Positions 25,916 through 39,697 of a stretch of DNA of 64,000 nt are shown piece by piece. A model generated the notes under the pieces. That model searched no databases, had not been told where the DNA came from, and was given only the letters and a program-made list of their open reading frames with translations. The position numbers and the translations under genes were made by a program. Position 1 is the first letter of the stretch; every line of letters begins with the position of its first letter. This stretch comes from Pontibacillus chungwhensis. GTDB lineage: Bacteria; Bacillota; Bacilli; Bacillales; BH030062. The stretch spans positions 2,232,001 through 2,296,000 of the forward strand of contig NZ_CP126446.1 in the NCBI RefSeq assembly GCF_030166655.1. The letters run 5' to 3'.

Positions 25916-26827
25916 TTATGAATGATTAGACAACCATTCTTCCCATTCTGTACTCGTACTTCCGATAATATAGGGCTTAACTGGCTCTTTATCTTTATGT
26001 GGTAATGTATCCAAGGCAAAGCCACCAAGTCCAATTTCTAAATCAGGATAGCGCTCCTTTAATGCATCTGCAATATGGACGGTCGAGGGTATGTTCTTTT
26101 TCATTGTACAAGACAAGAAAAGATATTTAGGCTTAAGCTCGTTTACGATTACTTCCACGTCCCCTGGTGCAATACTTTGACCAAGATAAACCACATCGTA
26201 CCCCTGACGTTTAAGATAAAGGCTGAAAATCAAGATACCTAATTCATGTCTCTCATTAGGTCCACACACACAAACGGCTTTAGGTTGCATATGGTTAGCC
26301 GGCATAGAGACTAACATCATTCCAAGTCTAGATCGTAGGAAATTGCTTGCGAAATGCTCATGAACACTCGAGATTTCATTCGATTCCCAAAGATCACCTA
26401 TTTTCACTAGAATTGGACCTACAATATCGATAGCCACTTTTTCAGGAGTAAAGAGGCTGAACGCATGATCAAGTTTCATTTGGGCTTCCCTCTCATTAAA
26501 GCGAAGAAGAGCATCCAATAATTCGTCCGATACTGATTCCACATGGCTTTCATTTGTGGTTGTATTTTCCTCTGAAATAGTCGTCTGCTGGCTTTGGTTG
26601 CTCTCTAGCAATGAAACGGCCTGGGATATAGTAAATCCTCTATTCACTTTATCAATCAGCCATTTAAGGACTTTAATATGTTCATCTGTATATAATCGAT
26701 GACCAGCCTCATTGCGCGTTGGACGTATCATTTTATATCTCCGCTCCCAAGCTCGAAGTGTACCTGATTGGATTCCGAGCATTGTTGATACGGCTTTGAT
26801 GTTGTATTTTCCTTGAGTGCTGGACAT
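25916..26827 (-). CDS. MerR-type regulator with cobalamin-binding photoreceptor domain (CarH/LitR-like)
   Basis: A 303-residue protein with a MerR winged-helix DNA-binding domain (about 7-75; TLRAWERRYKMIRPTRNEAG), a four-helix cap (about 100-175) with the W-x9-EH signature (Trp147...Glu157-His158), and a B12-binding domain whose ExHxxG motif is ERHELG (192-197, His194 the expected lower cobalt ligand). CarH and LitR bind adenosylcobalamin in the dark, repress as tetramers, and release DNA in light. In Thermus CarH the residue after the cap Trp is His132, the light-state ligand (from memory); here it is Glu, so light response is not assured. Own promoter and terminator; no carotenoid genes nearby, so targets are unknown. 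Confidence 0.85.
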   Translation of the reverse strand: MSSTQGKYNIKAVSTMLGIQSGTLRAWERRYKMIRPTRNEAGHRLYTDEHIKVLKWLIDKVNRGFTISQAVSLLESNQSQQTTISEENTTTNESHVESVSDELLDALLRFNEREAQMKLDHAFSLFTPEKVAIDIVGPILVKIGDLWESNEISSVHEHFASNFLRSRLGMMLVSMPANHMQPKAVCVCGPNERHELGILIFSLYLKRQGYDVVYLGQSIAPGDVEVIVNELKPKYLFLSCTMKKNIPSTVHIADALKERYPDLEIGLGGFALDTLPHKDKEPVKPYIIGSTSTEWEEWLSNHS

Positions 26828-26857
26828 ACCTTATCCCCCAATAAACTATTTGCCTTT

Positions 26858-34576: not shown

Positions 34577-35820
34577 TTAGAGTAACTTTGATTTGCAGGC
34601 ATGGGATTCACACTAAATGGAACTTGCAGAGACTTAGTGAAGTTATATGTTCCTAAACGTTCAAAAGGAAAACCATTAAACTTGACCTCTTGGTACCCAA
34701 ATTCCTTTGCGGTCATAAGAATGGATTCAATCATCCACAAGGTGTAGCGGGCCTGTTCCAAGCCTTCAACACCATTAACGTTGACCTCAAGTGTATCACC
34801 GGTAGTTTCTACTGCCATTACCTCTACCTCTTTAGGAATCGTTCCTTCCACATTAAAGTTAGGTTCATCTACTTTCAGCTTATTTAACGCCTCTTCAACT
34901 GTCGCACTTTGATTGATAGGTACCTGCACAAACAACTGCAACCCATTTGGTGAGTTAAACCGTTTATATACAGATATCCCATCCAATTTTATCTGCTTTA
35001 GACCTGAATTATTTCCAAGGTCTACACCAGGTTCACCATTCGTTTGAAGATCAATGGTTTGAATGTTTAGAGGCCGAAACATGGCTTTTAAAGACTTTAA
35101 AAAGATGTTTTCCTGAGCTGAGGAACCTGGAAATTCGTAATCTTCAGGAAAACCCGCCACCACTATTCGTTCTTTTTGGTTAATATTAAACGAAACAGAG
35201 GAAAACTGATACTCCATTACGCCCCAATCTTCTTGAATAGAAGGGGAAAGAGAATTGTATAACTGCTCAACGGTTTGAGTATCATTTACGGACTGAAATG
35301 TAAAAGGAATAATATATTGTCCTTGCACATCCGCAAAAGGCAAAGTCGCATATTTCTTATTATCCTCTCTATACACGACCTGAGAGCTTAACGCACTGTC
35401 AGTGGCAACAAATCCTTGTTCACTATCGTTACCCATATCTGATTTTGACTGATCACTTGACTGATGGCTCTCTTCTGTTTCTTGAAGCTTTGCCTCTTTA
35501 TACTCATGAGCTTCACTTGTCGATTGGTCAGCACTTGCGTCCATTGACTCATTAGATGAAGCCGTATCGTGTTGAGCATTATCCATTTGCATAGAAGGGA
35601 AAGCAACGACGAAAAAGAGAATAATGGCTGCTAGTGAAGCTATTCCTGCTCCCCAAGCTGTTAGGGCCTTCTTGCGTTTGGATCGTTTCTGTACATGCTG
35701 AAACCGCTTCGTTGATATCTTTCTGTACAATTCTTCACTGCTTTGCCGGTCTTCTACACTCGGCATCCGGTTCAGGAGATCTTGAATGGAATCATCGTTG
35801 TGATGGTTATTTCGTTTCAC
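34573..35820 (-). CDS. rsiX: Anti-sigma factor RsiX
   Basis: About 415 residues: a cytoplasmic N-terminal part (about 1-52), one transmembrane helix (about 53-76), a Ser/Gln-rich linker and a large extracytoplasmic domain with GerMN-like segments. Position directly downstream of sigX and the topology identify it as RsiX, which sequesters SigX. GTG 35820 lies eight bases after GAGGAGGGG; an in-frame ATG at 35847 has its only support inside sigX. It overlaps the sigX end by 14 bases. Confidence 0.85.
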   Translation of the reverse strand: MKRNNHHNDDSIQDLLNRMPSVEDRQSSEELYRKISTKRFQHVQKRSKRKKALTAWGAGIASLAAIILFFVVAFPSMQMDNAQHDTASSNESMDASADQSTSEAHEYKEAKLQETEESHQSSDQSKSDMGNDSEQGFVATDSALSSQVVYREDNKKYATLPFADVQGQYIIPFTFQSVNDTQTVEQLYNSLSPSIQEDWGVMEYQFSSVSFNINQKERIVVAGFPEDYEFPGSSAQENIFLKSLKAMFRPLNIQTIDLQTNGEPGVDLGNNSGLKQIKLDGISVYKRFNSPNGLQLFVQVPINQSATVEEALNKLKVDEPNFNVEGTIPKEVEVMAVETTGDTLEVNVNGVEGLEQARYTLWMIESILMTAKEFGYQEVKFNGFPFERLGTYNFTKSLQVPFSVNPMPANQSYSK

Positions 35821-36349
35821 GCTGGATCCCCTCCTCATATTCCTCATTCATAAGGGATTGTAGCGCCTTCATCCCTCTGTGTTGTGTGGTCTTTACTTTG
35901 CTAACCGTCATCCCTAATATATCAGCAGTCTCCTGTATGGACATGGATTGAATAAATCGTAAGATAATCACCGTCTTCTGGTCCATTGTACACTTTTCTA
36001 AGCAATGATACATTTTTTGAATTTCTTCATTTTGAAGAGCAATTTCCTCAGGGATTGGTTGTCCGTCTTCAATAAGATGACCTTTTTCTCCCCAGTCAAA
36101 GAATTCTAAAATTCGATTTCTCTTTCTCTTTTGCTTTCTGAAGAAATCAATCGTAACATGGCGTGCTATTGAAAACATCCATGTCTTTTCACTACTATCC
36201 CCATTGAAACGGTCATAGGAATTCATTACTTTTATATAGACTTCTTGAACGAGATCCTCAGCTTGTTCCCGGTTTTTAACCATATAAAATATAAATTGAA
36301 ACACATCTTTATGATATTTCTCATAAAGATCTTGAAATACGGAATCCAT
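35807..36349 (-). CDS. sigX: ECF sigma factor SigX
   Basis: A 180-residue ECF sigma factor with region 2 (about 5-75; REQAEDLVQEVYIKVMNSY) and region 4 (about 118-170; SIQETADILGMTVSKVKTTQHRG). In B. subtilis SigX controls cell-envelope modification genes (dlt, pssA) and resistance to cationic peptides. Its location beside resDE and rsiX is the same here. A promoter matching the SigX consensus lies just upstream, indicating autoregulation. GGGAGG site before ATG 36349. Confidence 0.92.
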   Translation of the reverse strand: MDSVFQDLYEKYHKDVFQFIFYMVKNREQAEDLVQEVYIKVMNSYDRFNGDSSEKTWMFSIARHVTIDFFRKQKRKRNRILEFFDWGEKGHLIEDGQPIPEEIALQNEEIQKMYHCLEKCTMDQKTVIILRFIQSMSIQETADILGMTVSKVKTTQHRGMKALQSLMNEEYEEGIQRETK

Positions 36350-36520: not shown

Positions 36521-36554
36521 TAAAAAACCCAATCAGTTCAAAGTCTGATTGGGT
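36521..36554 (-). terminator. Terminator of the ECF S-component operon
   Basis: ACCCAATCAG paired with CTGATTGGGT (ten pairs, eight-base loop), then six T on the minus strand. It overlaps the last codons of the S-component gene. Confidence 0.85.
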
Positions 36555-37063
36555 CTGCTAAAAGATTTAAAATTTTTCTTTTCGTATAATTGAAACAAAC
36601 GGGATAAGACAGGATACAAGATGACCATAAAAACGACATTTCCAACCGCATGATACGTATCAAAAGGGAGACTCGTTAACCAATAGGCAAAGAAATGGTT
36701 TCCGATCTGGCCATATGTAACGGCCATTATAAATCCAAAGAAATACCCACTCATACCCGCAAAGAAGGCAAATCCATACAATGGAATCTTATGACGATAT
36801 TTCCCTAGTAAACCCGCGAGAAGTCCAATAAGAGACCAACTCACAATTTGAGGCAACGTCCATATTCCCATACCAAGCAACATATTCGATAAGATTGTAG
36901 TCAAAATGGCAAGGATAACGGAATAAGAAGGACCTAACCAAATTCCACATATAATAATGATTGCGGTCACAGGCTGGACATTCGGATAAAAGCTGAATAA
37001 AAATCGACCTACAGTGGCAAGAGAAGCAAGCAATGAAAGCAGCGTTAACCTGTATAAGTTCAT
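36533..37063 (-). CDS. ECF transporter S component, predicted cobalamin substrate
   Basis: A 176-residue integral membrane protein with about five to six transmembrane helices and no ATPase, typical of ECF-type vitamin S components (ECF_trnsprt family; SLLASLATVGRFLFSF near the N-terminus). Substrate is inferred from context: it is the second gene behind a cobalamin riboswitch, six bases after a DUF4430 lipoprotein gene. CbrT-type S components transport cobalamin. No EcfA or EcfT genes are nearby, so it probably uses a shared energising module encoded elsewhere. Confidence 0.8.
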   Translation of the reverse strand: MNLYRLTLLSLLASLATVGRFLFSFYPNVQPVTAIIIICGIWLGPSYSVILAILTTILSNMLLGMGIWTLPQIVSWSLIGLLAGLLGKYRHKIPLYGFAFFAGMSGYFFGFIMAVTYGQIGNHFFAYWLTSLPFDTYHAVGNVVFMVILYPVLSRLFQLYEKKNFKSFSRPNQTLN

Positions 37064-37069
37064 CGTTTC

Positions 37070-37486
37070 TTACTCCCAGCTATGAAAATCAAATGTCACA
37101 GAATCCCCAGCCTCTAATTTATAATCCTTCGCTCCAACCATTGCTTCTTCCCCATTTACAGTATAAAACCAAGCCTTTTTCTCTCCATCTTCAGGGCTAA
37201 CTCCTTCAATAGCAGTGATAAAGCCGTCATTTCCAGCCTCTAAATTAAAATTAGCTTCCATGACTTCCATAACCGTCATACCGTCTTCAATTTCAACCTC
37301 TTTTTCACTTATAACTTCTTCCCCGTTATTTTTGGTGATTTTAACTTCTACTTGTTGCTCTTGTTCTTCTTGCGTGGACTGGTTATCTGCATCTCCATTG
37401 CTTCCACCTTCTGTGGATTGTCCACATGCTGCAAGACCTCCTAGTACAAAAAAGGACACCAAAAATAGTTGTAACAGTTGTTTCAC
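37070..37486 (-). CDS. DUF4430 lipoprotein (transcobalamin C-terminal-like), predicted B12 binder
   Basis: A 138-residue predicted lipoprotein: signal peptide, lipobox LAAC (Cys about 21), an acidic Ser/Gln-rich linker and a C-terminal DUF4430 domain (about 48-138; WFYTVNGEEAMVGAKDYKLE, GDSVTFDFHSWE). DUF4430 is related to the C-terminal beta domain of transcobalamin and intrinsic factor. Placed behind a cobalamin riboswitch and before an ECF S component, it is probably an extracellular cobalamin-capturing protein; this is inference. GTG start at 37486 behind GAGGGT. Confidence 0.82.
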   Translation of the reverse strand: MKQLLQLFLVSFFVLGGLAACGQSTEGGSNGDADNQSTQEEQEQQVEVKITKNNGEEVISEKEVEIEDGMTVMEVMEANFNLEAGNDGFITAIEGVSPEDGEKKAWFYTVNGEEAMVGAKDYKLEAGDSVTFDFHSWE

Positions 37487-37560
37487 TTTACCCTCAACCT
37501 CTCTGAATTAGTATGTAGAGGTTCCTTAGCTTCGAAGTGACCTAATCCATAAAACGTAAT

Positions 37561-37594
37561 AAAAAAGACTCTCCCTTTTATTGGAAGAGTCTTT
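37561..37594 (-). terminator. Riboswitch-controlled intrinsic terminator
   Basis: AAAGACTCTTCC paired with GGGAGAGTCTTT (12 pairs, one G-U, seven-base loop), then six T on the minus strand. It lies between the cobalamin aptamer and the lipoprotein start, about 75 bases before the GTG. Confidence 0.85.
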
Positions 37595-37680
37595 GAGCAT
37601 GACAAATCTCGTTATTTATACAATAGACAAGAAAGGTCTCTCAAACGCTCAATCCTCGAAGCTTTGAAACCGTTAACTAT

Positions 37681-37840
37681 GGCAGGTCTACTGACTTGTG
37701 TATCGATCTACTCGAGAGCCTTCCCTTACATCTAACATATAAAGTGGCATTTCTCTTTCGTCCACACGTACAGTTGCGAGGACAGTTCTGGATTCTAACC
37801 AGATTCCCTATTCAGCTCTCTAGTGAGAGCACCATAATTA
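37681..37840 (-). ncRNA. Cobalamin riboswitch (aptamer)
   Basis: On the minus strand the conserved elements occur in order: GGTGC near the 5' end (about 37829-37833), AATAGGGAA, TAGAATCC, CTGTCCTCGCAACTGT, GCCACT followed by GGGAAGG, and the B12 box AGTCAGTAGACCTGCC (37681-37696). Behind it lies a candidate antiterminator and an intrinsic terminator, so control is probably by transcription termination when cobalamin is bound. A possible promoter with an extended -10 (TGCTACGAT, 37867-37875) is just upstream. It controls the DUF4430 lipoprotein and ECF S component. Confidence 0.93.
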
Positions 37841-37927
37841 AAAATATGAAATTATCATCTGCTTGTATCGTAGCACAGTATTCTAGAAAAAGGAAGTCTA
37901 ATATTTAGGTGAACCTATCTATTCTAA

Positions 37928-39697
37928 TCAGGATTCGTTGATATTTGGAAGTCTAAACAAGAAGGTTGTTCCTTCCCCTTGTTTACTGTGAACGGAAATA
38001 GAACCTTTATGAGCCTCCACAATATTTTTGGCAATCGCTAGGCCTAATCCAGTCCCCGTTTTTCCGCCTTCGCTTCTTTTACGCGATTTATCCGCTTTAT
38101 AAAAACGTTCAAACACAAATGGTAGATCTTCTTCAGCTATACCAATCCCCTGGTCGCGAATTGAAAATTGCACGTCCTCTTCTTCTTTTTCTACATCTAC
38201 AAAGACTAACTTATCATGATCGGTATGGCGGATGGCATTATCGAGGAGGTTTGTTAACACCTGCTCAATACGGTCGTAATCAAAGTAGACTTGTCCCAAG
38301 TCCTCATCTACCTGAACTTGAATGGTAATGTTCTTATCATTCGCAAGACCTGTAAACTTTTTCACAATTCGCTCAATGTAGTCATGGAGATCAACTAGCT
38401 CACGGTTTAACTGAATATGACCAGCTTCCATGCGAGCCAAATCTAAAAGCTCATTCACGAGTCTACCTATTCGCAAGGATTCATCATAAATGATCTGCGC
38501 TAATTCATTCTTGTCCTCTTTTGATTCCGCAATATCATCCACAATGGCTTCACTATACCCCTGCAACATGGATATAGGTGTACGGAGCTCATGAGACACA
38601 TTCGCTATAAAGTCTTTCCTTAGTTTATCGAGTCTTCTTTCTTCAGTCATGTCACGGATAACAGCCACTGCACCCCGGACATATGTTTTGTCATAAAGCG
38701 GAGTCATGATGACAACAAAACTACGGCCTTGTACGACGAGCTCGGTCATAATCTCTTTTTCTTTCGTAATAACTTCCTCAAGCATTTCCTGTAACTCGCC
38801 AGGTAAGAGATCATGATTAGGCAGTCCATTTTCATGTTCATAAAACCAAGAATCGATAAATTGATCAGCCGGAGGATTTGTAACAAGCATATGCCCTTTA
38901 CGGTTCAATGTGATGACCCCATCAGCCATCGATCGAAGAATCCCTGATAATTGCTCCTTCTCTTGGTTCAAAGCATTAATATGGAATTTTAATTGCCTTC
39001 CCATTCGATTAAATGCCATAGCCAGTTCCCCAATCTCATCGTGCGTTAAAATGGGAACTTTCGTATTAAATTCTCCCCTAGCTAATTCAAATGCCCCTTC
39101 TCTCATTTTTATAAGAGGCGAGGTAATTCGAGTCGATAGGAAGAAAGCAAAGATTGTAGTTAAAATAATAGCTATCCCTGCTCCAAGGAAAATGATTTTC
39201 GTCGTTTGAGAGGTAGTCTGTTCAACAAAAGCCAGAGACTGATAAACAAATATTCCAGCTCCTTCATTTGATAAAGGGATCCCCACAATCATAACGTGGG
39301 TGTCAGTTCCAGGAATAATGTCCTCCTTCATAACTGTCTCATTAGATGCAAATACAGTAGATAACGATTCATCCTCGTATAACCATTTGATCGGAACAAC
39401 TGGCACGTCCTCTTTATAGGTAGGTGAAATCCATTGATCCTTATCATCAAAAGCCACAACAATTCTGCTTGAAGGGTCTATAATTTTCTCAGCAATGGAT
39501 AAAGCCAAAGGTCTCTCTTCATATTCATCAAGAATATCCTCAACCTTTTCAGCGGTTTGCATTAATTCTTGTTCTGCTTGATAGACATGATAACTTTCAA
39601 AAAATTCAAGTAACAGTACCGTTAAAATAAATAAAACAAAAGATACTAAAAGTAGTATAGTAAACCAAAGCTTACCTACTACACTCCTCCAAAACAT
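37928..39697 (-). CDS. resE: Sensor histidine kinase ResE
   Basis: A 589-residue kinase with two transmembrane segments (about 10-32 and 165-188) flanking an extracytoplasmic sensor, a HAMP linker (about 188-240), a PAS domain (about 248-350), HisKA with the phospho-acceptor SHELRTP (about 370) and a HATPase domain with GTGLGLAIA (about 553). ResDE senses oxygen limitation, nitric oxide and redox state and controls respiration genes. The ATG overlaps the resD stop (TAATG). No clear terminator follows the gene. Confidence 0.95.
   Translation of the reverse strand: MFWRSVVGKLWFTILLLVSFVLFILTVLLLEFFESYHVYQAEQELMQTAEKVEDILDEYEERPLALSIAEKIIDPSSRIVVAFDDKDQWISPTYKEDVPVVPIKWLYEDESLSTVFASNETVMKEDIIPGTDTHVMIVGIPLSNEGAGIFVYQSLAFVEQTTSQTTKIIFLGAGIAIILTTIFAFFLSTRITSPLIKMREGAFELARGEFNTKVPILTHDEIGELAMAFNRMGRQLKFHINALNQEKEQLSGILRSMADGVITLNRKGHMLVTNPPADQFIDSWFYEHENGLPNHDLLPGELQEMLEEVITKEKEIMTELVVQGRSFVVIMTPLYDKTYVRGAVAVIRDMTEERRLDKLRKDFIANVSHELRTPISMLQGYSEAIVDDIAESKEDKNELAQIIYDESLRIGRLVNELLDLARMEAGHIQLNRELVDLHDYIERIVKKFTGLANDKNITIQVQVDEDLGQVYFDYDRIEQVLTNLLDNAIRHTDHDKLVFVDVEKEEEDVQFSIRDQGIGIAEEDLPFVFERFYKADKSRKRSEGGKTGTGLGLAIAKNIVEAHKGSISVHSKQGEGTTFLFRLPNINES

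Follow-up and report, generated by a model that had tools for sequence, protein, structure and literature searches.

A cobalamin riboswitch-led gene pair of a DUF4430 lipoprotein and a CbrT-type S component, a probable vitamin B12 uptake operon

Results

A two-gene unit probably for B12 uptake

The DNA analyzed here (the window) is the whole stretch of 64,000 nucleotides. A two-gene unit in it is probably a B12 uptake operon repressed by B12, in which a lipoprotein captures the vitamin for a CbrT-type S component that works with a shared ECF module. The computed support comprised a riboswitch, terminators, the gene order, homology to CbrT, a predicted beta fold, a single EcfT in the genome, the linkage of the two genes in other genomes, and fuller operons. 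The first-pass annotation had arrived at the same overall reading, and each link of it that could be computed agreed.

On the minus strand, the unit is flanked by a sensor kinase gene, whose 3' end is at 37928, and by sigX, which starts at 36349 (Table 1). The riboswitch is followed by a terminator, the lipoprotein gene, the S-component gene and a second terminator. The two genes are six bases apart, as read from the coordinates and as the first-pass annotation had said. The upstream kinase is named resE here as in that annotation; among the best 25 NCBIfam models listed for it, none scored over its cut-off. The unit had also been said to be missing beside resE and sigX in B. subtilis. A profile search of that control genome gave no PF14478 match.

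Table 1. Coordinates of the unit and of the two genes that flank it
Feature	Position	Strand	Evidence
Sensor kinase (resE), upstream neighbor, outside the unit	37928..39697	-	Conserved neighbor
Cobalamin riboswitch aptamer, RF00174, complete	37664..37851	-	Rfam; B12 box at 37681-37696, zero mismatch to the pattern
Intrinsic terminator in the expression platform, with 12 pairs and a T-rich tail	37564..37594	-	Terminator scan
DUF4430 lipoprotein, 138 aa, GTG start 37486, stop 37070	37070..37486	-	PF14478; lipobox; predicted structure
CbrT-type ECF S component, 176 aa	36533..37063	-	PF12822; phmmer to 6fnp_A
Intrinsic terminator ending the two-gene unit, overlaps the 3' end of the S-component gene	36525..36556	-	Terminator scan
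SigX, downstream neighbor, outside the unit	35807..36349	-	NF007220, 278.8 bits vs cut-off 260; conserved neighbor

Riboswitch and terminators

The covariance search found the cobalamin riboswitch that had been predicted. The match spanned the complete RF00174 model (1-189) and scored 119.7 bits (gathering score 31.5), which placed the element in the family by its score over the whole model. A chance match was ruled out by the E-value of 1.9e-29. This was the sole Rfam gathering match within the window, in a search that included RF01482. The span proposed earlier needed correction. The aptamer starts 11 bases above the former upper end at 37840 and ends at 37664, and the bases from there to the gene make up the expression platform.

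The leader of 365 bases folded better than 100 of 100 dinucleotide shuffles (z -4.39). The terminator scan gave three terminator-like sites against a mean of 1.3 (sd 1.1) in shuffles, so the terminators are supported by their place and shape and not by their number. Presumably the riboswitch responds to its ligand and lowers the expression of the unit with B12.

The S component is of the CbrT type

The S component matched PF12822 (46.1 bits, cut-off 30.7) and also passed DUF6580 (28.1 versus 27). A phmmer search of the PDB sequences up to E 1 matched chain A of 6fnp alone (E 4.5e-25, residues 3-162 of 176). The PDB table names this entry only 'Membrane protein', and we take it to be ECF-CbrT of Lactobacillus delbrueckii.

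The structure of L. delbrueckii ECF-CbrT is described in PMC5997447. That source reports from experiment that CbrT imports cobalamin and cobinamide and binds cobalamin with a nM Kd; it describes S components as being themselves the substrate-binding protein, and it cites a 2009 paper for the prediction of CbrT. The lone S component noted in the first-pass annotation is therefore closest to, and homologous with, an experimentally characterized CbrT. By analogy, it would bind and import cobalamin.

Other specificities were considered. The Pfam model for riboflavin S components was marginal (26.8, cut-off 26.7), and this identity was rejected on that score and on CbrT being the sole PDB match. 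A folate or ThiW S component was rejected with NCBIfam scores far under the cut-offs. The nearest named relatives, among the best 80 of 230 CbrT places (see below), were Pontibacillus salipaludis and P. chungwhensis, at 84% identity in CbrT.

The lipoprotein has a predicted transcobalamin-beta-like fold

The N-terminus of the lipoprotein, as read from the sequence, carries a signal peptide and the lipobox LAAC with Cys21, followed by an acidic linker and a beta domain (residues 45-138). PF14478 matched residues 69-135 with 71.9 bits (cut-off 23.8), which made it a DUF4430 protein. In an AlphaFold2 model from a 42-row alignment, pLDDT was at least 90 in 90 of the 138 residues, nearly all of them within 45-138.

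Foldseek comparison of this model with the PDB gave 19 chains at E <= 1e-3. Two were 3u7z, a DUF4430 structure, and the other 17 were transcobalamin, haptocorrin or intrinsic factor. The E-values to the beta domains of these carriers were 8e-6 to 9e-5, which gave the predicted model a beta-domain fold, with moderate TM-scores (0.51-0.58 by query length; 0.66-0.80 by target length for single-domain targets). A profile from the same 42 sequences reached intrinsic factor at E 2.7e-4, haptocorrin at 8.8e-4 and transcobalamin-2 only at 0.16. The kinship with the transcobalamin beta domain suggested earlier is thus borne out by the predicted fold and weakly by sequence.

The alpha/alpha barrel of the transcobalamin family was not found in this single-domain protein of 138 aa, nor was an alpha-toroid gene found in the genome. 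The lipoprotein was left outside the transcobalamin, intrinsic factor and haptocorrin family; both domains occur only in relatives such as those at loci L189 and L211. An alpha-toroid partner elsewhere in the genome was rejected by a search that was positive in four of four control genomes. The gene was also not found in two other genomes of the host's genus.

The isolated beta domain of human transcobalamin has been crystallized with cyanocobalamin and with cobinamide (PMC5599065). Cobalamin is required for the alpha and beta domains to assemble, and splitting them lowers the affinity (PMC5599065). Cobalamin is described as going to the beta domain first, after which the alpha domain closes (PMC11107200). 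By likeness to that domain, the lipoprotein would bind corrinoids and hand them over to CbrT. In the literature covered, which left most subscription journals outside, no function was found for a bacterial DUF4430 protein and none was tied to transcobalamin.

The weaker binding by separated transcobalamin domains, together with a genome in which no alpha toroid was found, is an observation that speaks against B12 capture by the lipoprotein. So does the name that the depositors gave to 3u7z, 'putative metal binding protein'. The same name would suit a different task, in which the lipoprotein is a structural partner, a chaperone or a binder of a different metal compound and shares only its regulation with CbrT. 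We judge such a task very doubtful, as the 17 Foldseek chains other than 3u7z are all cobalamin carriers, and related operons add an alpha-toroid partner domain (see below).

ECF module and B12 demand of the host

The genome gave one PF02361 match (185 bits), which identified a single EcfT. Its gene sits after two ECF ATPase genes and before truA, as read from the sequence. The first-pass annotation had the S component borrow EcfA/EcfT from elsewhere, and the one ECF module found indeed lies outside the locus. A dedicated module for the window CbrT was rejected on the count of one EcfT.

The genome encodes NrdJ (607.9 bits, cut-off 399.95) and a cobalamin adenosyltransferase. A further protein joins the C-terminal domain of methylmalonyl-CoA mutase to an epimerase, and both parts scored over their cut-offs. 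For an IcmF-type mutase, the available part of the gene gave 974 bits against a cut-off of 1500. Scores under the cut-offs were obtained for CarH-like proteins and for a radical SAM protein that has a B12-binding domain. CbiC was absent in the genome search.

These enzymes bear on the cargo. The unit might serve salvage, with cobinamide or another incomplete corrinoid and not cobalamin as the main substrate. CbrT also imports cobinamide (PMC5997447), a review pairs cbrUVT with uptake of cobyrinate diamide (PMC8123684), and the transcobalamin beta domain binds cobinamide (PMC5599065). On the other hand, the host has B12-dependent enzymes and the adenosyltransferase and no CbiC, and salvage as the main task seems to us distinctly unlikely.

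Two RF00174 riboswitches are present in the genome. The other one precedes a class I ribonucleotide reductase pair, probably nrdE/nrdF by reading of the translations, which leaves the window unit as the only RF00174-led transport unit.

DUF4430 and CbrT genes are linked

Of 249 genomes of the host's order, 94 had a PF14478 match. The DUF4430 set consisted of 93 loci: the best match in 92 of the other 93 genomes and a second place in G129. Genome G053 was left out, its weak DUF4430 match not being among the matches listed. A CbrT homolog was found on the same strand in 90 of the 93 loci, and within 150 bp in 56. Among the three loci lacking it, L045 is at a contig end, and the genomes of L123 and L125 carry CbrT on another contig. 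CbrT was present in all three DUF4430-positive genomes tested and in none of five DUF4430-negative ones. The two genes lie apart in G035 and G235.

Such linkage would also be compatible with a composite site, in which the lipoprotein is a lid over cobalamin already on CbrT, CbrT replaces the missing alpha domain, and no ferrying takes place. We consider this unlikely. In its favor, the two domains of transcobalamin close only around bound cobalamin, searches found no alpha toroid at minimal loci or in the window genome, and the lipoprotein gene abuts cbrT in the window and in the 56 loci above. On the other hand, CbrT of L. delbrueckii binds cobalamin alone, and G035 and G235 keep the genes apart. 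Because that binding has nM affinity, the lipoprotein may even be dispensable. Capture by the lipoprotein followed by hand-over remains our preferred reading.

A B12-box pattern, allowing up to 2 mismatches, was found upstream on the same strand in 79 of the 93 loci (<=400 bp in 75). With CbrT in 90, this survey, which the first-pass annotation had suggested, showed a close linkage of DUF4430 with CbrT. Rfam confirmed eight of nine pattern-positive loci examined, the exception being L102. All 14 pattern-negative loci were also searched: seven had a cobalamin-clan riboswitch (six RF01482, one RF00174) and seven had none. This indicated that the strict pattern misses AdoCbl-class riboswitches (RF01482) and undercounts there. 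With strict filters, the genomes of the sample held 0 to 8 riboswitches each. At the highest density observed (7 in a 3.6-Mb genome), simple arithmetic gives a chance of about 2% for a riboswitch in a random 12-kb stretch.

The lipobox pattern was present in 95 of 111 short DUF4430 proteins (106 distinct) from loci without EcfT, the CbrT-led ones being from the best 80 of 230, against a mean of 6.2 and a maximum of 13 in 200 shuffles. Judged from their N-termini, the 16 pattern-negative proteins of this same sample include some with a missed lipobox and several that are apparently helix-anchored.

A CbrT profile was run against named genomes; of the 230 places confirmed, the best 80 form the CbrT-led set to which the following counts refer. 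A DUF4430 gene was found in 76 of the 80 loci, two archaeal contigs included. Nine of the 80 recur in the DUF4430 set, and among the unshared loci the gene was present in 67 of 71. The four loci without it (L201, L203, L205 and L210) all lie on short contigs or at contig edges. The second survey depends in part on the first: DUF4430-led loci supplied the seed for the CbrT profile, the scan used one peptide pattern, and nine loci recur.

The strict riboswitch pattern was found in 47 of the 80 CbrT-led loci. Rfam found RF00174 in seven of seven pattern-positive loci tested, and at the Rfam threshold no cobalamin riboswitch in seven pattern-negative loci tested, from Oceanobacillus, Virgibacillus, Gracilibacillus, Paraliobacillus and one genome labeled Roseburia. 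This suggested that part of the family keeps the DUF4430-CbrT pair without such control, which counts against our reading.

Fuller operons carry an alpha toroid and their own ECF module

Locus layouts were drawn from in-box searches that took proteins of the window, L115 and L189 as seeds and could have overlooked distant genes for EcfT, EcfA or the alpha toroid. EcfT- and EcfA-like genes were found in 34 of the 93 DUF4430 loci. An alpha/alpha-toroid domain was present in all 34, fused to DUF4430 in 32, and at 38 of the 93 loci overall. Among the CbrT-led loci (best 80 of 230), 26 of 80 had EcfT; 20 of these had the alpha toroid, and in six no alpha-toroid ORF was found. L096, L116 and L134 have an EcfA-like ORF and no EcfT. 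Separate alpha-toroid and DUF4430 genes, with CbrT, no ECF module and an AdoCbl-class riboswitch upstream, were found at L061, L065, L070 and L075.

Pooling both sets (CbrT-led again the best 80 of 230) gave 44 fused alpha-DUF4430 ORFs, 40 of them distinct, and 27 of the 40 have an LPxT-type anchor. SLH domains occur on some other fused proteins. Most fused proteins have the beta domain first; the alpha-then-beta order of transcobalamin was found at L080, L209 and L211. Ten DUF4430 copies are present at L071. The Pfam model for eukaryotic cobalamin-binding proteins touched L115 weakly, at E 0.0041 and under the cut-off. For the predicted structure of the L189 protein the top match was a farnesyltransferase, and prenyltransferases and terpene cyclases were matched as well as transcobalamin chains, so the toroid alone is no proof of kinship with transcobalamin. 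Nevertheless, its presence in related operons, as the other half of a transcobalamin-like clamp, is a further argument for B12 capture.

A CbrT tree was built by a quick method and rooted at its midpoint. It held 162 sequences: the window protein and those of loci with a CbrT ORF of at least 120 aa, identical ones taken once. The 55 proteins of loci with a dedicated ECF module separated from the rest at a branch with SH-aLRT 100. Only two loci departed from this, both on the full side: L203, whose contig is 4 kb long, and L201, which has EcfA alone and sits at a contig edge. Loci with split alpha genes branched low on the minimal side.

ResE- or SigX-like genes were found in the stretch at 49 of the 93 DUF4430 loci and 47 of the 80 CbrT-led loci (best 80 of 230). 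Among dedicated-module loci such neighbors occur at three distinct places: L056 (the same place as L189), L092 and L111. One chromosomal place therefore carries both the minimal and the full form. Compared with the fuller operons, the window unit seems to represent a minimal version with only the beta domain. We infer that the minimal form arose when the full one was reduced; with a quick, midpoint-rooted tree, the direction can be put no more firmly than that.

Discussion

The unit probably works as follows. When cobalamin is scarce, the riboswitch would let transcription pass the terminator. On the outer side of the membrane, the tethered, transcobalamin-beta-like lipoprotein would bind cobalamin or a related corrinoid and pass it on to the CbrT-type S component. 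CbrT would dock on the single shared EcfA-EcfA'-EcfT module of the cell for ATP-driven import. The unit would be a reduced, beta-only form of a wider system, in which CbrT occurs together with a surface protein with alpha toroid and DUF4430, a second DUF4430 protein, a dedicated EcfT and a duplicated EcfA.

A broader proposal is tentative, and we would hold it somewhat less probable than its opposite. A transcobalamin-like clamp of bacteria and archaea, in bacteria an alpha toroid and a DUF4430 beta domain on one or two surface-anchored proteins, might feed an ECF transporter, and the animal carriers transcobalamin, haptocorrin and intrinsic factor might be a branch of this older prokaryotic pair. 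The window unit would then represent the extreme of reduction, with an extracellular binding protein dedicated to an ECF transporter. ECF transporters are not known to need such a protein.

The part worth an experiment is the transcobalamin-like domain pair tied to CbrT in Firmicutes, of which the DUF4430 part is also found in archaea. The close DUF4430-CbrT linkage leads to a simple and direct test on one soluble domain of 94 residues. Should the alpha-toroid relatives prove to bind B12, human carriers would share their two-domain design with prokaryotic counterparts in B12-controlled transport operons. This would bear on the origin of the human B12 carriers and on competition for B12.

Comparison with known systems

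The transporter type is known, and the window unit is a variant of it. The S component is homologous over nearly its whole length to that of ECF-CbrT of L. delbrueckii, with one EcfT to share. In L. delbrueckii the gene order is given as nrdJ-cbrS-cbrT-pduO (PMC5997447), whereas the window has a riboswitch-led lipoprotein-cbrT pair between resE and sigX. CbrV-CbrU-CbrT has been named as an ECF transporter (PMC6722938); the window locus differs in having no dedicated CbrU or CbrV, in a genome with one EcfT only.

A DUF4430 lipoprotein as a component of a cobalamin ECF transporter is not wholly new, as it is already known as an annotation. The entry for LGG_02295 of L. rhamnosus (LRHMDP2_2713), a DUF4430 protein encoded near rtpR, reads 'Additional lipoprotein component of putative cobalamin ECF transporter'. 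On aeration this protein decreases together with the B12-dependent RtpR (-1.8 and -2.0 log2) (PMC9963975). The window unit shares with it the DUF4430 partner of a cobalamin ECF transporter. The entry as given in that source is an annotation only, with neither a mechanism nor a link to transcobalamin.

The lipoprotein shares its predicted fold with the beta domains of human transcobalamin (5no0, 5np4), haptocorrin (4kki) and intrinsic factor (2pmv, 3kq4), with a faint likeness in sequence. These carriers are soluble two-domain proteins, whereas the window protein is a lipid-anchored single domain without the alpha barrel.

BtuF has a different fold and belongs to a different type of ABC importer, not to the ECF type. 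As part of BtuCDF, it is likewise an extracytoplasmic B12-binding partner of an importer (PMC5997447). BtuG of Bacteroides, as described in PMC6143338, is also a surface lipoprotein that catches B12 for a transporter, from a locus with a B12 riboswitch. However, it is a seven-bladed beta-propeller that works with the outer-membrane BtuB (PMC6143338), and its fold is unrelated to that of the window lipoprotein.

Riboswitches and forms of the unit

No cobalamin riboswitch was detected at the Rfam threshold in the fetched loci L155, L156, L158, L161, L165, L174 and L178, where the pair of DUF4430 lipoprotein gene and cbrT still adjoined resE- or sigX-like genes. Our reading of these sequences is that riboswitch control of the pair was lost or replaced there. 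In L061, L065, L070, L075, L076 and L106, the unit was headed by an AdoCbl-class riboswitch (RF01482) instead of RF00174.

L161 lies on a contig named Roseburia sp. 1XD42-34. It clustered with Virgibacillus chiguensis in the CbrT tree and had the resE-like gene beside the unit. Because of this grouping and this neighbor, the record may be misnamed.

The minimal operon and the full operon, with a dedicated ECF module, were both present in Oceanobacillus manasiensis (L142 and L202). An EcfA-like ORF without EcfT lay close to the pair in L096, L116 and L134. Genome G129 carried two operons with a DUF4430/toroid gene (L135 and L093), the former with tandem B12-box matches (table).

The gene for the 2063-aa surface protein in L071 was preceded by a cobalamin riboswitch. 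Several DUF4430 copies in this genome (G152) shared equal E-values. This suggests recent tandem growth of the copies.

Other cobalamin-linked genes of P. chungwhensis

Besides the pair, the window held a gene for a CarH-like regulator. Elsewhere in the genome, a second cobalamin riboswitch lay upstream of genes that we read as nrdE/nrdF, and the B12-dependent reductase NrdJ was also encoded. The putative nrdE/nrdF product would be a B12-independent reductase retained as a backup that is likely repressed by B12.

Coordinates of cobalamin-linked features
Feature	Location	Strand	Remarks
Three tandem B12-box matches	L135 454-1320 (G129)		Upstream of DUF4430/toroid gene; pattern scan alone
Surface protein, 2063 aa	L071 6844-13035		Ten DUF4430 copies, alpha-toroid domain, SLH domains
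Second cobalamin riboswitch	Own genome C1:786692-786873 (L002, L004)		116.9 bits
Putative nrdE/nrdF	L004 4021-7311		
CarH-like MerR regulator	Window 25922-26830	-	B12-binding domain; NF052513 150 bits, under the 400-bit cut-off
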